NCBI RefSeq assembly: GCF_029688845.1
Contig: NZ_JARUKW010000023.1
Span: forward strand, 1-58,133
DNA: 58,133 bases
Source of the DNA: Natronococcus sp. A-GB1
GTDB lineage: Archaea; Halobacteriota; Halobacteria; Halobacteriales; Natrialbaceae
Direction of reading: 5' to 3'
The position numbers were made by a program, and so were the translations under genes. Below the pieces are notes generated by a model. The model saw nothing but the letters and a program-made list of their open reading frames with translations. It ran no database searches and was not told where the DNA came from. Below, piece by piece: positions 41,172 through 48,746 of this stretch. How positions within the stretch are numbered: position 1 is the first letter of the stretch; every line of letters starts with the position of its first letter.

Positions 41172-41609
41172 TCAGTCGAGTAATCCAAATCCTTCATCGC
41201 GCATTAGTTCAGCAACATCTTCTGGGTTCTCAAATGCGTACTTGAGGGCGAATTCTCTCGCATCTGTTTTTGGAACTTCGTCTGTTTCGAGAGCGCTAGC
41301 AAGGGCACTCCGAAATTCGGACTCTTGATCGCTTACTTCCGACCTCAGATGGACCTCGAGCCGATTGTCTCGTTCGTCTCCAACGTTAGACCGACGGACA
41401 AAGTATGGGTACCCTTGTGGGTCCTGCTGAGAATCAGTGACAGATGTGGATTGACTGCTAGTCGTTTCTGAGGTGCTCTGTACCTGCTGGGACTGAGGCG
41501 TCACTTGTTCAGCGCTGCTCTCGCCATTAGCCTGCGATTTGGACTCTGATTCAGTTTCGGCATCATCGCTTGTTTGGCTGAAATCCAAATTTCCAGATCC
41601 TTCCTTCAT
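41172..41609 (-). CDS. ParA-partner protein, probable partition adaptor
   Basis: The 145-residue protein begins MKEGSGNLDFSQTSDDAETE and has a low-complexity Ser/Gln/Thr linker (about residues 15-65) followed by a folded C-terminal part (YPYFVRRSNVGDERDNRLEV, then REFALKYAFENPEDVAELMR). Its ATG overlaps the parA stop in a TAATG junction, so it is translationally coupled. A small, partly disordered second gene after parA is the usual place for a centromere-binding adaptor. No HTH or RHH motif is obvious, so the DNA-binding role is inferred from position. Confidence 0.65.
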   Translation of the reverse strand: MKEGSGNLDFSQTSDDAETESESKSQANGESSAEQVTPQSQQVQSTSETTSSQSTSVTDSQQDPQGYPYFVRRSNVGDERDNRLEVHLRSEVSDQESEFRSALASALETDEVPKTDAREFALKYAFENPEDVAELMRDEGFGLLD

Positions 41610-42601
41610 TAGACCGTCACCTCTGTTTCAACGTCGTCATGAAGATCGAAGGTTCTTTTCTCGTGCCCCTCGATATCAAGTACTAATTCAGGATCAATTT
41701 CAGCGTCGAACGTCTCGCTTGCAATAAATGCGGCCAGTTCATAGATGTCCCGGGCTGTCTCAAGTTCGCGGTCGCGAATTCGTCGCTGACCGGGCTCGCT
41801 TACCATCTCTCCATCTTTTTCGAAGGTTTTCCAGCGCTCTTCGAGAACCTTGTATGCAGAACCACGCGCTTCCCACATCGTATCCATCAAACTCTCGCGG
41901 TCTGGAATCGCAACGGGAGTCGCATAGTTATCTGTGTTTTTGAACCGCTTAGAGTACTGTTGATGAGCGTTGGTCTGCCCGACACCAGAGGGAACGACAC
42001 ACGAAAGCCCAACCTCAATTCCCAGTTGCGTCTCCATGTTCGTGACGAGTTCCTCGAGCCCGTCGAGACTCAGATTGCCTTTTCCAGCTGGTTTGACTGG
42101 TGCAACCAGTGTCCGCATAGCATAGATCGCATTGTACAGAAGATCTTCCGCTCGAGCGTTTGGATCGATGAGAACAGCATCGTACTGCTCATGAAGTTGC
42201 TGCTCGTTCCATAACAGATCATACAGCAACTCGTACCGTGGAAACTCCTCTTTGGTCATGTTCTTCATCCCTGTCTCATAGGCGATTTTCTGCTCAAGAT
42301 TAGACGTGAAGTCACCAAGCATATCGTGACTTGGAATTACATCGACCCCTTCATCTGAAGTTTCAATGAGGTCTTCAAATGCCCCATCAGGCATTTCCAG
42401 GACGTGCTTTACGAGATTGTCCGCATCCGGATCACTTCGGTGTTCGCCAACGTCAAACAGGGTTGTGAGATTTCCCTCTTGTGGATCGAGGTCAATGGCG
42501 CAGACGTCCAGCCCCATTCGCTCTAAACTGACTGCGAGGTTGGCTGTCGTCGTTGTTTTGAACGTTCCGCCTGACTCTGAATAGACGACTGCTGTTATCA
42601 T
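41609..42601 (-). CDS. parA: ParA-family partition ATPase
   Basis: The 330-residue ATPase starts MITAVVYSESGGTFKTTTTA: a deviant Walker A in which the usual leading lysine (KGG) is Ser (SGGTFKTT), while the main Lys is kept. Further motifs are CAIDLDPQEGNLTTLFDVG (Walker A' Asp) and DAVLIDPNARAEDLLYNAI (Walker B). It should drive plasmid segregation with the coupled gene at 41172. The TATA-like GATTTAAGT at about 42626-42634 gives a leaderless message, and a 13-base-period repeat array lies immediately upstream. Confidence 0.88.
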   Translation of the reverse strand: MITAVVYSESGGTFKTTTTANLAVSLERMGLDVCAIDLDPQEGNLTTLFDVGEHRSDPDADNLVKHVLEMPDGAFEDLIETSDEGVDVIPSHDMLGDFTSNLEQKIAYETGMKNMTKEEFPRYELLYDLLWNEQQLHEQYDAVLIDPNARAEDLLYNAIYAMRTLVAPVKPAGKGNLSLDGLEELVTNMETQLGIEVGLSCVVPSGVGQTNAHQQYSKRFKNTDNYATPVAIPDRESLMDTMWEARGSAYKVLEERWKTFEKDGEMVSEPGQRRIRDRELETARDIYELAAFIASETFDAEIDPELVLDIEGHEKRTFDLHDDVETEVTV

Positions 42602-42697
42602 CAGTACCAGGTACAGTCACTCATTACTTAAATCTGTGTCAGACATTTGGGGCAGATTATAGGGTCATATAATACTAACAGACACACATAATACATA

Positions 42698-42814
42698 TCT
42701 GTCCCAATAGTACATAACATACGTCTGTGGTTTATGTCTGTTACAGAGGTCTGTTATCTTACTCCGTACCTTCTATCTGCTACAGTTATCTGTAATAGGC
42801 ATCTGTTACAGCCT
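42698..42814. repeat. 13-bp-period TCTGTTACAG array, putative centromere/operator
   Basis: Units starting with TCTG recur at 42698, 42724, 42737, 42750, 42776, 42789 and 42802, all multiples of 13 bases apart, with degenerate units at 42711 and 42763. The best units read TCTGTTACAGA (42737-42747) and TCTGTTACAG (42802-42811), themselves palindromic. Position just upstream of the parA promoter fits a parS-like site that doubles as operator. Further TCTGT/ACAGA half-sites lie at 42633 and 42678. Confidence 0.7.
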
Positions 42815-43048: not shown

Positions 43049-44428
43049 TCACTCAGCAGAAGCATCCACAACGTCAGCAAGGTCGTAGAGCACAACATCA
43101 TCTCGAGTCGTGGCCTGCTGGCGAAGATCATCAGTATATCCAGATCGGCTAAACAGAACATACTGTATCGTCGCATCCGCTGGCTCGCCTGACCAACGAA
43201 CGTGTCCGGCAGTTCGCTCTAGGTCTGCAAGAACACCCTCACTGACAGGAGATGACGTGAACTTACACTCACCAGCGACTAGTCCGTCGTCAGTCAATCC
43301 GAGGACGTCCAATTCGTGCTCTTTGAACCACCATTGACCGACAGTATGGAATGGGCGGTCGATCAGATTAGGGAGGGCTCGCTGGCAAAGTCGTTCAAAA
43401 AGTGGGCTAACATAATCCGATAGCTCAGGAGCAACAAGCTCGTCGTATGCGTCGTCGCCTAACAACCGAAGCCGATCCTGATTCCCATAGACGAACCGAA
43501 ACCAGAACCTGAACAGTGGCGCAGAGAGACGATATCGACCTCGCTTTGACGATGTCGGTGATTCAGTTACCGGGATGTGACGTTCAACAAGCCGAAGCCG
43601 ACGTAGTTTCTGAAGATACGTACTCAGTGACTGGGACTCGACGCCAGCCATTCCAGCGATTTCGTTGGGAGTTCGGCGGCCATGCGCCAAGGCTCGGAGA
43701 ATACTGAAGTAGGTATTCGGTTGTCGAAGCTCTGTTCGAAGAAGAAATTCCGGTTCAGAGTACAGGAGACCACGTTCTGAGAGAATAGACTGCTGGACAT
43801 TTGCTGCAAGTGCCTCAGTGGGGTCAATGGTCTGAAGATAGTATGGCGTTCCACCGTAGATCGCCCACGCTATAACAACGGCTTCATCGTCGTACTGTGG
43901 GTAGAACTCCTTTGTGTTCCCGACAGAGAGAGGTTTCAGGTCAATAGTTGCTGTTCGACGGCCATACAATGGACTGTTGCCAGCAAGCACTTCATCCTCC
44001 ATTACGCTAATTGAGGAACCGACAAGTACGAGCGTTATTCCAGTCTCCTGAAGTTGCGTGTCCCAGACTCGCTGAACCCGTGAAGGAAGTGAATCATCTT
44101 CCTCGAGGAGAAACGGAAACTCGTCGATAACGACGACTGCATTCTGATCACCTAATGCACCGAGTAGTGCTTCCCAGTCTCGGCGAATATTTTCGAGGGA
44201 AGGAAATTGGTCTGTAACTACGTCAACAAACTGCTCGAGTTGATTTTGTGCAGTCGACTCGATCGCCTGGTAGTAGACTGCATCATCCCGGTCAGCAATC
44301 GACTGACGGACGAGCTCGCTCTTACCGAGTCGACGTCGCCCGTATAGGACAACGAATTCAGCGCGGTCCGAATTGTATCGGCTCGTTAGTTCCTCAAGTT
44401 CCTGTTCTCGATCAACGAACGAGTCCAT
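43049..44428 (-). CDS. archaeal AAA ATPase with C-terminal nuclease-like DUF234 domain
   Basis: The 459-residue protein has Walker A GRRRLGKS at residues 30-37, Walker B VVVIDEFPFLLE with Asp102-Glu103, and a sensor stretch LVLVGSSISVMEDEV. A winged helix follows (RRTPNEIAGMAGVESQSLST). The C-terminal domain has KEHELDVLGLTDDGLVAGEC then KF, a Glu-Asp-ECK pattern of PD-(D/E)xK nucleases. This is the archaeal ATPase/DUF234 architecture common on mobile elements, of uncertain role (DNA maintenance or defence). Three 14-base palindromes lie just upstream of its TATA at about 44449-44458, indicating tight control. Confidence 0.87.
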   Translation of the reverse strand: MDSFVDREQELEELTSRYNSDRAEFVVLYGRRRLGKSELVRQSIADRDDAVYYQAIESTAQNQLEQFVDVVTDQFPSLENIRRDWEALLGALGDQNAVVVIDEFPFLLEEDDSLPSRVQRVWDTQLQETGITLVLVGSSISVMEDEVLAGNSPLYGRRTATIDLKPLSVGNTKEFYPQYDDEAVVIAWAIYGGTPYYLQTIDPTEALAANVQQSILSERGLLYSEPEFLLRTELRQPNTYFSILRALAHGRRTPNEIAGMAGVESQSLSTYLQKLRRLRLVERHIPVTESPTSSKRGRYRLSAPLFRFWFRFVYGNQDRLRLLGDDAYDELVAPELSDYVSPLFERLCQRALPNLIDRPFHTVGQWWFKEHELDVLGLTDDGLVAGECKFTSSPVSEGVLADLERTAGHVRWSGEPADATIQYVLFSRSGYTDDLRQQATTRDDVVLYDLADVVDASAE

Positions 44429-44464: not shown

Positions 44465-44515
44465 GGTTTTGGAAAACCGGATTTTAGAAATCGTGATTTC
44501 GGAAATCATGATTTC
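44465..44515. promoter_or_regulatory. three 14-bp palindromes upstream of ATPase gene
   Basis: GGTTTTGGAAAACC (44465-44478), GAAATCGTGATTTC (44487-44500) and GAAATCATGATTTC (44502-44515) are each perfect 6-2-6 inverted repeats. They sit just upstream of the TATA-like CTATATACTC and 37-87 bases before the ATG at 44428. The last two are near-identical, as expected for a regulator dimer binding in tandem. Confidence 0.6.
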
Positions 44516-45285: not shown

Positions 45286-46605
45286 ATGCCCACAGATCCC
45301 GGTCCCAAAGAAACATCCGAGTCTACGGGTTCTATCAAAGATTTAATCCTCGAGCAAGAAGAATCCGCAACGCTCATCAAGAACCGATCTCTTCTCGAAC
45401 CAAACGAGATCGTTGACGAAGAGCGTATCGTCGGCCGTGATTCCCAACTCACCGACATCACTCAGCATCTCCGTGTCGCTATAAGGAACGAGCGTCCGCC
45501 AAATCTCCTTCTCTATGGCCCATCCGGGACCGGAAAATCACTTATTATCAATGCAGTCTGTTCGAACATCGTCGAACTCTGCGAAAGCCGTGATATTAGA
45601 TTTGGTGTAATTCAGATGAATTGCCAGAACATTGGCACTCTTGGATCTGCTGTCTACGAATTAGCCCGAAAAGTTGCAAACGATGCTGAAGCAACTGTTG
45701 AGGTCCCAGAGCATGGAATTCCGAACAAGAAAAAGTGGCGTGAACTCTATCGTTTGATCAATGAACACTATGATACTGTTGTCTTCATACTTGATGAGCT
45801 CGATATGCTTGTCGGTCGTCGAGATAAGGATGAACCTGCTTTTTCTCGCCTTCTCTACCAGCTTTCTCGCGCCAATAGCACAAACGAAATCTCAGCTCAG
45901 GTGTCTGTGACTGCCATCACTAACGACACAAAAATGATGGAAAACGTAGGTAGCCGAGCACTGAGCTCCTTCACGCCTGAAGACGTCCACTTTAGTGATT
46001 ATGATGCCAATCAGCTTCGGGCAATCCTTCGTGCCCGGGAGGACGCCTTTCATGAAGGCGCGCTCAGTGACGACGTAATCCCTCTAGCAGCAGCCTTCGC
46101 CGCACAGACCAACGGAGACGCACGGAAAGCAATCGACCTCGTGCGAACAGCCGGATCCATCGCGGAAAAAGCGAGCGCAGACCAGGTTCGTGAGGAACAT
46201 ATTCGGAAGGCTCAGGACAAGGTCGAAAAGAATCGCGTTTTAGAAGTGACTCGTGGAATCAGTACTCAGAAAAAGTTGTGTCTCTTTGCGACGGCTGCAG
46301 TTGCTCGCGAAACTGGAACTGGAGCTGCTAAGAGTCCGCATGGGTATCGAGTATATCAGTATCTTACGGGCACTCTTAGTTCTGACCAGTATCACCAAGA
46401 GACGTATGTGAACAAAATGAAAGAGCTCACAACGTATTCTCTAGTTGAGACAGAGCGGAAGAGTCAGGGGCCCCATTCTGGAAGTTATCTCGAGTTCACG
46501 TTTGGTGAAAATCCAAACACAATTATCGAAACACTGCGAGAAGACTCACGTCTTAATGACGTACATGACGAGGAGCTTCGTGCAGTGGTAAACACCCAGC
46601 TATAG
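45286..46605 (+). CDS. orc1: Orc1/Cdc6 replication initiator
   Basis: I prefer the ATG at 45286 (MPTDPGPKETSESTGS). A GTG four codons upstream is possible. The 439-residue AAA+ protein has Walker A GPSGTGKS (residues 78-85), Walker B VVFILDELDMLVG (Asp170-Glu171), sensor 1 VTAITNDTKMM, sensor 2 region NGDARKAIDLVRTAG, and a C-terminal winged helix (KSPHGYRVYQYLTGTL, then LTTYSLVETE) for origin recognition. It is flanked on both sides by the 18-bp iterons and should be the cognate initiator of this replicon. Confidence 0.94.
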   Translation: MPTDPGPKETSESTGSIKDLILEQEESATLIKNRSLLEPNEIVDEERIVGRDSQLTDITQHLRVAIRNERPPNLLLYGPSGTGKSLIINAVCSNIVELCESRDIRFGVIQMNCQNIGTLGSAVYELARKVANDAEATVEVPEHGIPNKKKWRELYRLINEHYDTVVFILDELDMLVGRRDKDEPAFSRLLYQLSRANSTNEISAQVSVTAITNDTKMMENVGSRALSSFTPEDVHFSDYDANQLRAILRAREDAFHEGALSDDVIPLAAAFAAQTNGDARKAIDLVRTAGSIAEKASADQVREEHIRKAQDKVEKNRVLEVTRGISTQKKLCLFATAAVARETGTGAAKSPHGYRVYQYLTGTLSSDQYHQETYVNKMKELTTYSLVETERKSQGPHSGSYLEFTFGENPNTIIETLREDSRLNDVHDEELRAVVNTQL

Positions 46606-46769: not shown

Positions 46770-48746
46770 TCAAATTTCAGTTATCATCTCATGTCTGTCC
46801 TCGAGTGCTTGTGCGTCTTCGTCAAGTAGCGCAACGGTGAGATACGGGGCGTACGACTCGAAGTACTCTACAATGGTTGCGATACGTTCGGAATCAATTG
46901 CCTCGAGCGAATCGAGCAACATGAACGGAACCGTCTCGTGAACGTCGTGGACCAAATATCCTGCAAGCGCAAAGACGAGCCCAGTAACCTCGCGCTCGCT
47001 CTCGCTGAGGTGGTTGATCGAGTCTTCGTAGGCTGTCCCCTCCTCAGTACTGCGGACGATCTTGAGGTCGAACGACGATTTCGTCACTTTGCGTCGGCCT
47101 TCGCGAACGTCGCGTGTTGTCTGATCGATCCAGATCCGATCGAGATTACTGTACCCGAGGATCTCTAACAAGCTCTCCATGTGCTCGTTGAACTCCTCGA
47201 CCGCACTGTCTTCGATTTGATCGATACGGGTTCGAAGATCGGCTAACTCTTCGGTTGTCTTCTCACGCCGATCTTGAAGCCCTTCGCGGTCATCAAGCCG
47301 TTCTTCGATCGACGTGATTTTGTCTTCGACATCATCGCGCTCGCTTTCCTTTCGTTCAATCTCGAACTCGAGCTGGTTGACTTCGCGGTGTTGCTCGAGA
47401 ATGTCCTCGGAGTCGTCGGTCTCGAGGTCATCGATCTCTGTCTCGAGTTCAGTAATCTCTTCTGTGAAGGCTTCCCGATCGTCCGTAAGATCCTCGACGC
47501 GGTCACGCCGGCGCTCGATTTCGTCGTCGATCGACTCGAGACGGCGATTGGCTCGCTGATACTCGGATCGATTCTCCTCGATTTCGTTAAGCGTCGCTCG
47601 TTTCTCCTCGAGGTCGTCATTGATTTCCGAACGCTCGTTGAGCCGGTCCTCGTATACAGACTGAAGCTGTTCGATCGTAGTTTCGATTTGGTCGGTGGCG
47701 ACCGAGGAACCACAGGTCCAACACGTGACGGTCCCCGAATCGGCATCGGAGAGTAGCTGGTCGGTAACGGGACCATCATTGTTGTCCGCCTCGCCACCAA
47801 GGAACTCTCCAGGATCCTCTAGCAGCTGTTCGTTGAATTGGATCGTCCGCTGAAGCTGCGAAATTTCTTCATTGAGTTCGTTTTTCTCCGTTTGGAGCGT
47901 CTCGATTTCAGCTTCGAGGCGACCGAGATTCGCTTCTCCACCTGCTTGCAGCTCCTCGAGGTCGGCTTCGACTTCCTCGTGCTCGTTTTCCAGCGCCTCG
48001 ATACTCTCGCGTTCGGTCTCGATCCGGTTTCGAACTCGTTCGAGCTCTGAACGCGTGTCCCGAAGCTCATTGAGTTTCTCATCGAGTTCGGATTGTTCCT
48101 CACGTCGGGTTTCGACGTCAGTATTCGCAGCTTCGAGTTCTTCTTCAGCAGTTTCGAGTTCGTCGCGGAGTTCTTCGACTTCGTCAATCAGTCGCGTTCG
48201 CTTGGCCTCGAGGTCGGGGAGTTAATTCTCGAGGTTATCGAGTTCGTCGAGTTCATTGTCGATCTGGGTTTTCCGCTGCTCGAGCTGCTGGATTTCAGCT
48301 TTGATCGCATCGGTATCGACCGGCCGCATGATCAGATCACGGAGGTCGTCACCGCGAGCAACAGCCTGGCGGGCCTCGTTTGATTCGAGCAGGAACGCGA
48401 ATAGATCCGCGATCTCCGGATTATCGAGATACGGGTCGCCTTCAGTAACGATCGTGCCGTTCCGCCGATGAAGCGTCTGCTGGTAGGTTTCCTCACCGAA
48501 CTCGAGAGTAGCTTGTCCTTCCTTGCTGTCCGCTTTGAGGCTCGCTTGGTCGCTGCCGAGTGCCGCCATAATTCCCTGGAGCAGCGACGTCCGATTTGTT
48601 GCATTACGACCGGAGAGAACGGTCACTCCCTGTTCGAACGACACCTCTGTTTCATCGATGCCCCCGATATTACTGACTGAGAGGCTTGCCTGCTCTGGAG
48701 GAGATTGTTCCGTAGCGTGCTGGCTTGTTCTCATAGGTGTAGACAA
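46770..48746 (-). pseudogene. archaea-specific SMC-related protein broken by one stop codon
   Basis: A single minus-strand frame runs 659 codons from the ATG at 48746, interrupted only by TAA at 48222-48224 (codon 175). The head has GVTVLSGRNATNRTSLL, a Walker A with Arg for Lys. Long Glu/Arg/Leu-rich coiled coils follow, with a zinc-hook-like CWTC at codons 342-345. The C-terminal head has signature HLSESEREVTGLVFALAG and Walker B PFMLLDSLEAID. The stop falls after DELDNLEN in the first coiled coil and leaves an intact frame behind it. Unless read through or re-initiated, the protein is lost. The family is an SMC/Rad50-like chromosome-organisation group of haloarchaea. Confidence 0.8.

Follow-up and report, generated by a model that had tools for sequence, protein, structure and literature searches.

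The par locus and its repeat array

The window, which is the whole 58,133-nucleotide stretch of Natronococcus sp. A-GB1 DNA analysed, carries on its minus strand a parA gene (41609-42601) encoding a 330-aa Walker ATPase matched by Pfam AAA_31 from residue 5, and directly downstream a gene for a 145-aa partner protein (41172-41609, minus strand) whose start overlaps the parA stop. The ParA P-loop lies near residue 10 (about residues 9-17, near 42551-42577) and the protein lacks a DNA-binding domain at its N-terminus. ParA proteins carry a signature lysine in a deviant Walker A box, KGGxxK. This lysine was replaced in 94 of 94 ParA relatives with a readable P-loop, by Ser in 48 and Ala in 46, the P-loop taking the form ESGGTFKT or EAGGVGKT; with the signature lysine missing, the ATPase cycle may differ.

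From its N- to its C-terminus, the partner comprises a K-x-G-x-G motif, a low-complexity linker of acidic character and a conserved domain of 79 residues (residues 67-145; 41175-41411, minus strand), the last proposed to mediate DNA binding and dimerisation. Its conserved lysine-bearing tail reads K-x-G-S-G-x-L-x-F, with K2 of the K-x-G motif invariant; this tail is disordered and bears a conserved basic residue, and in an AlphaFold2 model the linker has a pLDDT below 50. Members of the family were present in 120 of 194 Halobacteria genomes and 49 of 65 sampled genera, and sampling of genomes from outside the order turned up none. The partner matched nothing in profile searches of Pfam, NCBIfam, PHROGs and PDB sequences. 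On many haloarchaeal plasmids (e.g. NZ_CP149789.1) RefSeq labels the partner 'acyl-CoA dehydrogenase', a label supported by no family search. The partner sequence shows a V-x-F-x-L stretch, which in some relatives contains proline, and after it two helices and a REAA motif, a pattern suggesting that the partner is probably a ribbon-helix-helix (RHH) protein. In AlphaFold2 models, helices at about 26-41, 48-61 and 63-72 within the domain were confident while the expected strand region was not, and Foldseek searches with these models returned no significant structural match, so the RHH fold is taken here as an inference from the sequence. A histone fold, indicated by weak Foldseek matches (E 2.9 and above), was rejected as these were not significant.

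Upstream of parA lies an array of about 14 units in one phase with a 13-bp period (42631-42812, minus strand), delimited by grid words and by a profile. An earlier sequence-only reading had described a strict 13-base grid at 42698-42814 (plus strand), comprising nine slots of which seven start with TCTG. This grid is real: TCTG occurs in phase on the plus strand (grid 42698 + 13k) at 42698, 42724, 42737, 42750, 42776, 42789 and 42802, the two remaining slots reading TACA (42711) and TCCG (42763). Across the nine units one 4-mer recurs in phase seven times; in 2,000 dinucleotide shuffles, scored for any 4-mer at any period of 8-25, no more than four such copies arose, and at every other period in the window, the harmonic at 26 excepted, the in-phase TCTG count was three or fewer. 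Autocorrelation over 42633-42814 was 0.49, 0.47, 0.45 and 0.40 at lags 13, 26, 39 and 52 against a background of about 0.25. Tandem Repeats Finder did not list the array, the units of which are only about half identical.

The coordinates first given were nevertheless too narrow. The phase extends to 42633 (TCTGTGTCAGA), with in-phase CAGA half-sites at 42646 and 42672, and a profile of 13 columns, derived from other plasmids after holding out the window locus and its 99% relative, scored highest on the parA-sense strand of the 58-kb window at 42735-42812 (z 9.2) and 42631-42708 (z 6.8). Taken together these stretches indicate an array about 182 bp long that overlaps the parA promoter, so that contact between array and promoter, as claimed originally, is established by the extended array, although the earlier coordinates did not show an overlap. 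The promoter itself (GTCTGACACAGATTTAA, 42628-42644, minus strand) consists of a conserved GTCTGAC box and a TATA-like TTTAA and doubles as the last array unit; the held-out profile also detected a weak extra unit downstream of the TATA box (42605-42617, minus strand, score 6.9). In the parA sense the array unit is TCTGTTACAGA plus 2 bp, with the strongest units from 42735 on, and the best unit, TCTGTTACAGA, lies at 42737-42747, with no strand assigned, and holds the only exact TCTGTNACAGA of the 4.5-Mb genome. Half-sites TCTG and CAGA alternate in orientation every 6-7 bp and repeat every 13 bp. As the same reading had anticipated, this period is not an integral number of helical turns: 13 bp corresponds to 1.24 turns, placing each successive unit about 86 degrees off the last.

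No second array was detected elsewhere in the window by the held-out profile; a candidate at 45850 within orc1 (z 5.3) was rejected because no regular words were apparent on reading. Two other repeats were observed. Words of TCGA recur every 21 bp at 47341-48290, as many as seven of them in phase, and are probably a coding repeat; a short tandem of GATTTCAGAAATCAT at 44480-44515 lies just upstream of an ATPase_2/DUF234 gene (43049-44428), of which it is perhaps the operator.

A 13-bp period before parA across Halobacteria

Comparison with other haloarchaeal par loci, proposed as a check in the sequence-only reading, revealed the same period. Scanning species genomes with ParA yielded 37 loci from many haloarchaeal genera, at which upstream arrays were visible both by eye and by autocorrelation. 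When more distant plasmid loci were added to give a set of 55 parA upstream regions, lags 13 and 26 had mean z values of 5.35 and 4.28, with all others within 1.4; lag 13 ranked first in 41 and second in 11, and z exceeded 3 at lag 13 at 49 of the 55 loci, whereas of 1006 control windows taken at these loci only 4 did so. To avoid choosing loci, 40 ParA loci were drawn from 61 genomes of the same family, and here the partner was found at all 40 with lag 13 first or second in 39. A third sample of 40 loci, started from the partner domain across the whole class, gave a corresponding result (ParA adjoining at 40/40, lag 13 first or second in 39/40, mean z 5.06). In both samples the partner gene sits directly downstream of parA and overlaps it. 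The exception in this last sample, L135, possesses ParA and partner but no clear array (z 0.9 at lag 13). It is a chromosomal copy, on the chromosome of genome G116, that has kept the GTCTGAC box, and may be an integrated plasmid in the process of losing its centromere. In the Natronococcus genome, four distant ParA paralogs that lack a clear partner gave lag-13 z values of 2.0, -2.3, -1.6 and 1.5. Two par loci with identical upstream regions (L036 and L040) reside on a single Halospeciosus flavus plasmid (NZ_CP122313.1), and in one of them the partner runs on into a different C-terminus, as if a frameshift had occurred. Scans of viral contigs produced a single contig with the parA-partner system (L065, IMGVR_UViG_3300046058_000043, 53.5 kb), and the system was not found in phage records.

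At 38 loci of the same class as the window locus the grid is fixed relative to a parA promoter unit, TCTGACACAGATT, starting 41-46 bp from the ATG, and the grid fades after 7-8 units, its coherence being at background level by about unit 8; some plasmids carry additional clusters of units farther upstream. Pooling 228 units from these 38 loci gave TCTGTTACAGA with two additional bases; each period contains a single pair of dyads, and a per-locus dyad test was only moderately positive (36% at p<0.05). Other classes use the same 13-bp step with other words, for example ATCTWAGAT-like, TATAGCTATAC, GTCTAACTA, TTCAYNA and GGATTAGGTGAAT, and the two systems of the Natronococcus genome itself differ, with TCTGTNACAGA at C16 and a TCTAAG-type word at C2. 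Words that vary at a constant period are as expected if protein geometry sets the spacing and plasmid identity sets the words.

The promoter element has a distribution of its own. A GTCTGAC-N5-TTTAT box, in many cases some 42 bp ahead of the ATG, is common to four ParA-family genes of this genome (window 42628-42644, minus strand; C22:7588; C33:3663; C55:202657), three of which are without an array or clear partner, and the box is found also at most parA loci of other classes. It may represent a site through which a host factor ties par expression to the cell cycle. Misregulation of par paralogs has been seen in a Halobacterium cdrS mutant (PMC7439475); the promoters of ftsZ and dacZ in this genome spoke clearly neither for nor against a link between the box and CdrS.

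Candidate roles of the array and the partner protein

These data support the parS/operator interpretation offered by the initial reading, given the conservation of the array before parA, its register with the promoter, its co-occurrence with the partner and its plasmid-specific words. Our preferred interpretation, which we regard as quite probable from comparison of sequences, is that the array serves both as plasmid centromere (parS) and as operator of the parA-partner operon, and that the 41172 partner binds it. A narrower role, in which the array only autoregulates parA and its partner with the true centromere at another place on the plasmid, would account for the overlap with the BRE/TATA region and the promoter register; one or two sites would suffice for this, whereas 7-14 units are present, reaching up to 180 bp from the promoter, and further upstream clusters on some plasmids, together with the finding of no second array in the window by the held-out profile, also count against it, so that we judge it unlikely. 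That the array consists of replication iterons, bound as part of an origin by Orc1/Cdc6 or a Rep protein, is suggested by an orc1/cdc6 gene about 2.5 kb away in the window and by the fact that repeat arrays are typical of origins. The neighbourhood of an initiator gene is, however, not constant, with an orc1/cdc6 relative at only 9 of about 97 loci (stretches of 2 to 9 kb) whereas parA and partner are always present, and the array keeps register with the parA promoter; an iteron function thus seems very unlikely.

Two further candidates concern the identity of the binder. A regulator encoded on the chromosome, such as an RHH protein resembling CdrS, might be invoked from the GTCTGAC box shared by several parA promoters of one genome and from the par misregulation in the Halobacterium cdrS mutant, but only the single box fits such a factor. 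The array words differ between C16 and C2, and one host factor is therefore unlikely to read both, leaving a regulator of this kind a highly improbable binder of the array. ParA itself could recognise the sites, as type Ia autorepressors do, and its co-occurrence with the array is as strict as that of the partner; the position of its P-loop, however, leaves no room for an N-terminal helix-turn-helix, and ParA explains word similarity less well once the partner is accounted for, making this very improbable. Array-word similarity correlated with partner similarity at r 0.83 (0.32 given ParA), against 0.15 for ParA given the partner, values which carry limited weight as arguments from covariation because the covariation of words and partners is confounded with common descent. 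A ParA without an N-terminal DNA-binding domain corresponds to the type Ib layout (PMC5016525), which points to the small partner as the centromere binder.

If the partner is indeed the binder, its dimers would occupy the half-sites cooperatively and wind round the helix; the turn per unit and the alternating half-sites are compatible with a protein helix around the DNA. The loaded array would then recruit ParA-ATP through the lysine-bearing N-terminal tail and long acidic linker of the partner, and partner on the array would trigger the ParA ATPase, moving plasmid copies apart much as in the bacterial type Ib systems omega/delta and ParFG. The same protein layer would cover the BRE/TATA region and so repress parA and the partner gene. 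A broader proposal, for and against which we consider the balance about even, is that of a Halobacteria-wide partition family in which the centromere is defined by the 13-bp step into the parA promoter, the free word acts as the incompatibility address of the plasmid, the binder falls outside all described families and ParA functions without the signature lysine.

Comparison with known partition systems

For DNA partition in euryarchaea, the array and the partner provide a testable candidate cis site and binder, relevant to haloarchaeal plasmids in 49 of the 65 sampled genera. The array word could sort these plasmids into compatibility groups, and the misleading RefSeq label would give way to a partner function. 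A literature search of partial coverage yielded no description of a haloarchaeal centromere or of the partner, which is no proof of novelty; the archaeal centromere-like sites described so far in the literature examined are those of SegAB and AspA (PMC5120986, PMC7617429).

In bacterial type Ib systems the repeats are coated by an RHH protein, the N-terminal tail of which triggers ParA (PMC9499535, PMC5016525). The haloarchaeal locus resembles pSM19035 delta/omega/parS and TP228 ParF/ParG/parH in its small ParA lacking an N-terminal DNA-binding domain, in the small partner next to parA with a flexible tail bearing a basic residue, and in contiguous short repeats overlapping the par promoter (PMC9499535, PMC5016525); in pSM19035 four contiguous 7-bp repeats are the minimum required (PMC9499535). 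It differs in its step of 13 rather than 7 bp, its alternating half-sites, its archaeal promoter, a partner without detectable homology and a ParA without the signature lysine. The WATCACW heptads of omega-type parS, with their 7-bp step, are not those of this array, in which the words are TCTGTNACAGA and others. As Ser or Ala replaces the signature lysine in all 94 relatives with a readable P-loop and the partner is a putative RHH protein, we do not claim membership of type Ib.

Among archaeal systems, SegAB of Sulfolobales likewise combines a ParA-type ATPase with a small site-specific binder and sites upstream of the operon, the SegB site being a 13-bp palindrome, TCTAGA-S-TCTAGA (PMC12284271). 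SegB sites occur singly at dispersed chromosomal positions, whereas the haloarchaeal sites form an array, and no SegB chain was among the PDB matches of the partner-domain profile at E values up to 10. The AspA-ParB-ParA system of pNOB8 similarly partitions an archaeal plasmid, its site-specific binder spreading over some 200 bp upstream of the operon (PMC5120986), but employs three proteins, a winged-helix AspA and one 23-bp palindrome in place of the two-gene operon and 13-bp array found here. Finally, in the type II ParR/parC system an RHH protein, ParR, occupies tandem iterons located around the par promoter (PMC5016525), a likeness that would extend to the putative RHH partner and its array but not to the motor, which is the actin-like ParM in type II and a Walker ParA at the haloarchaeal locus.
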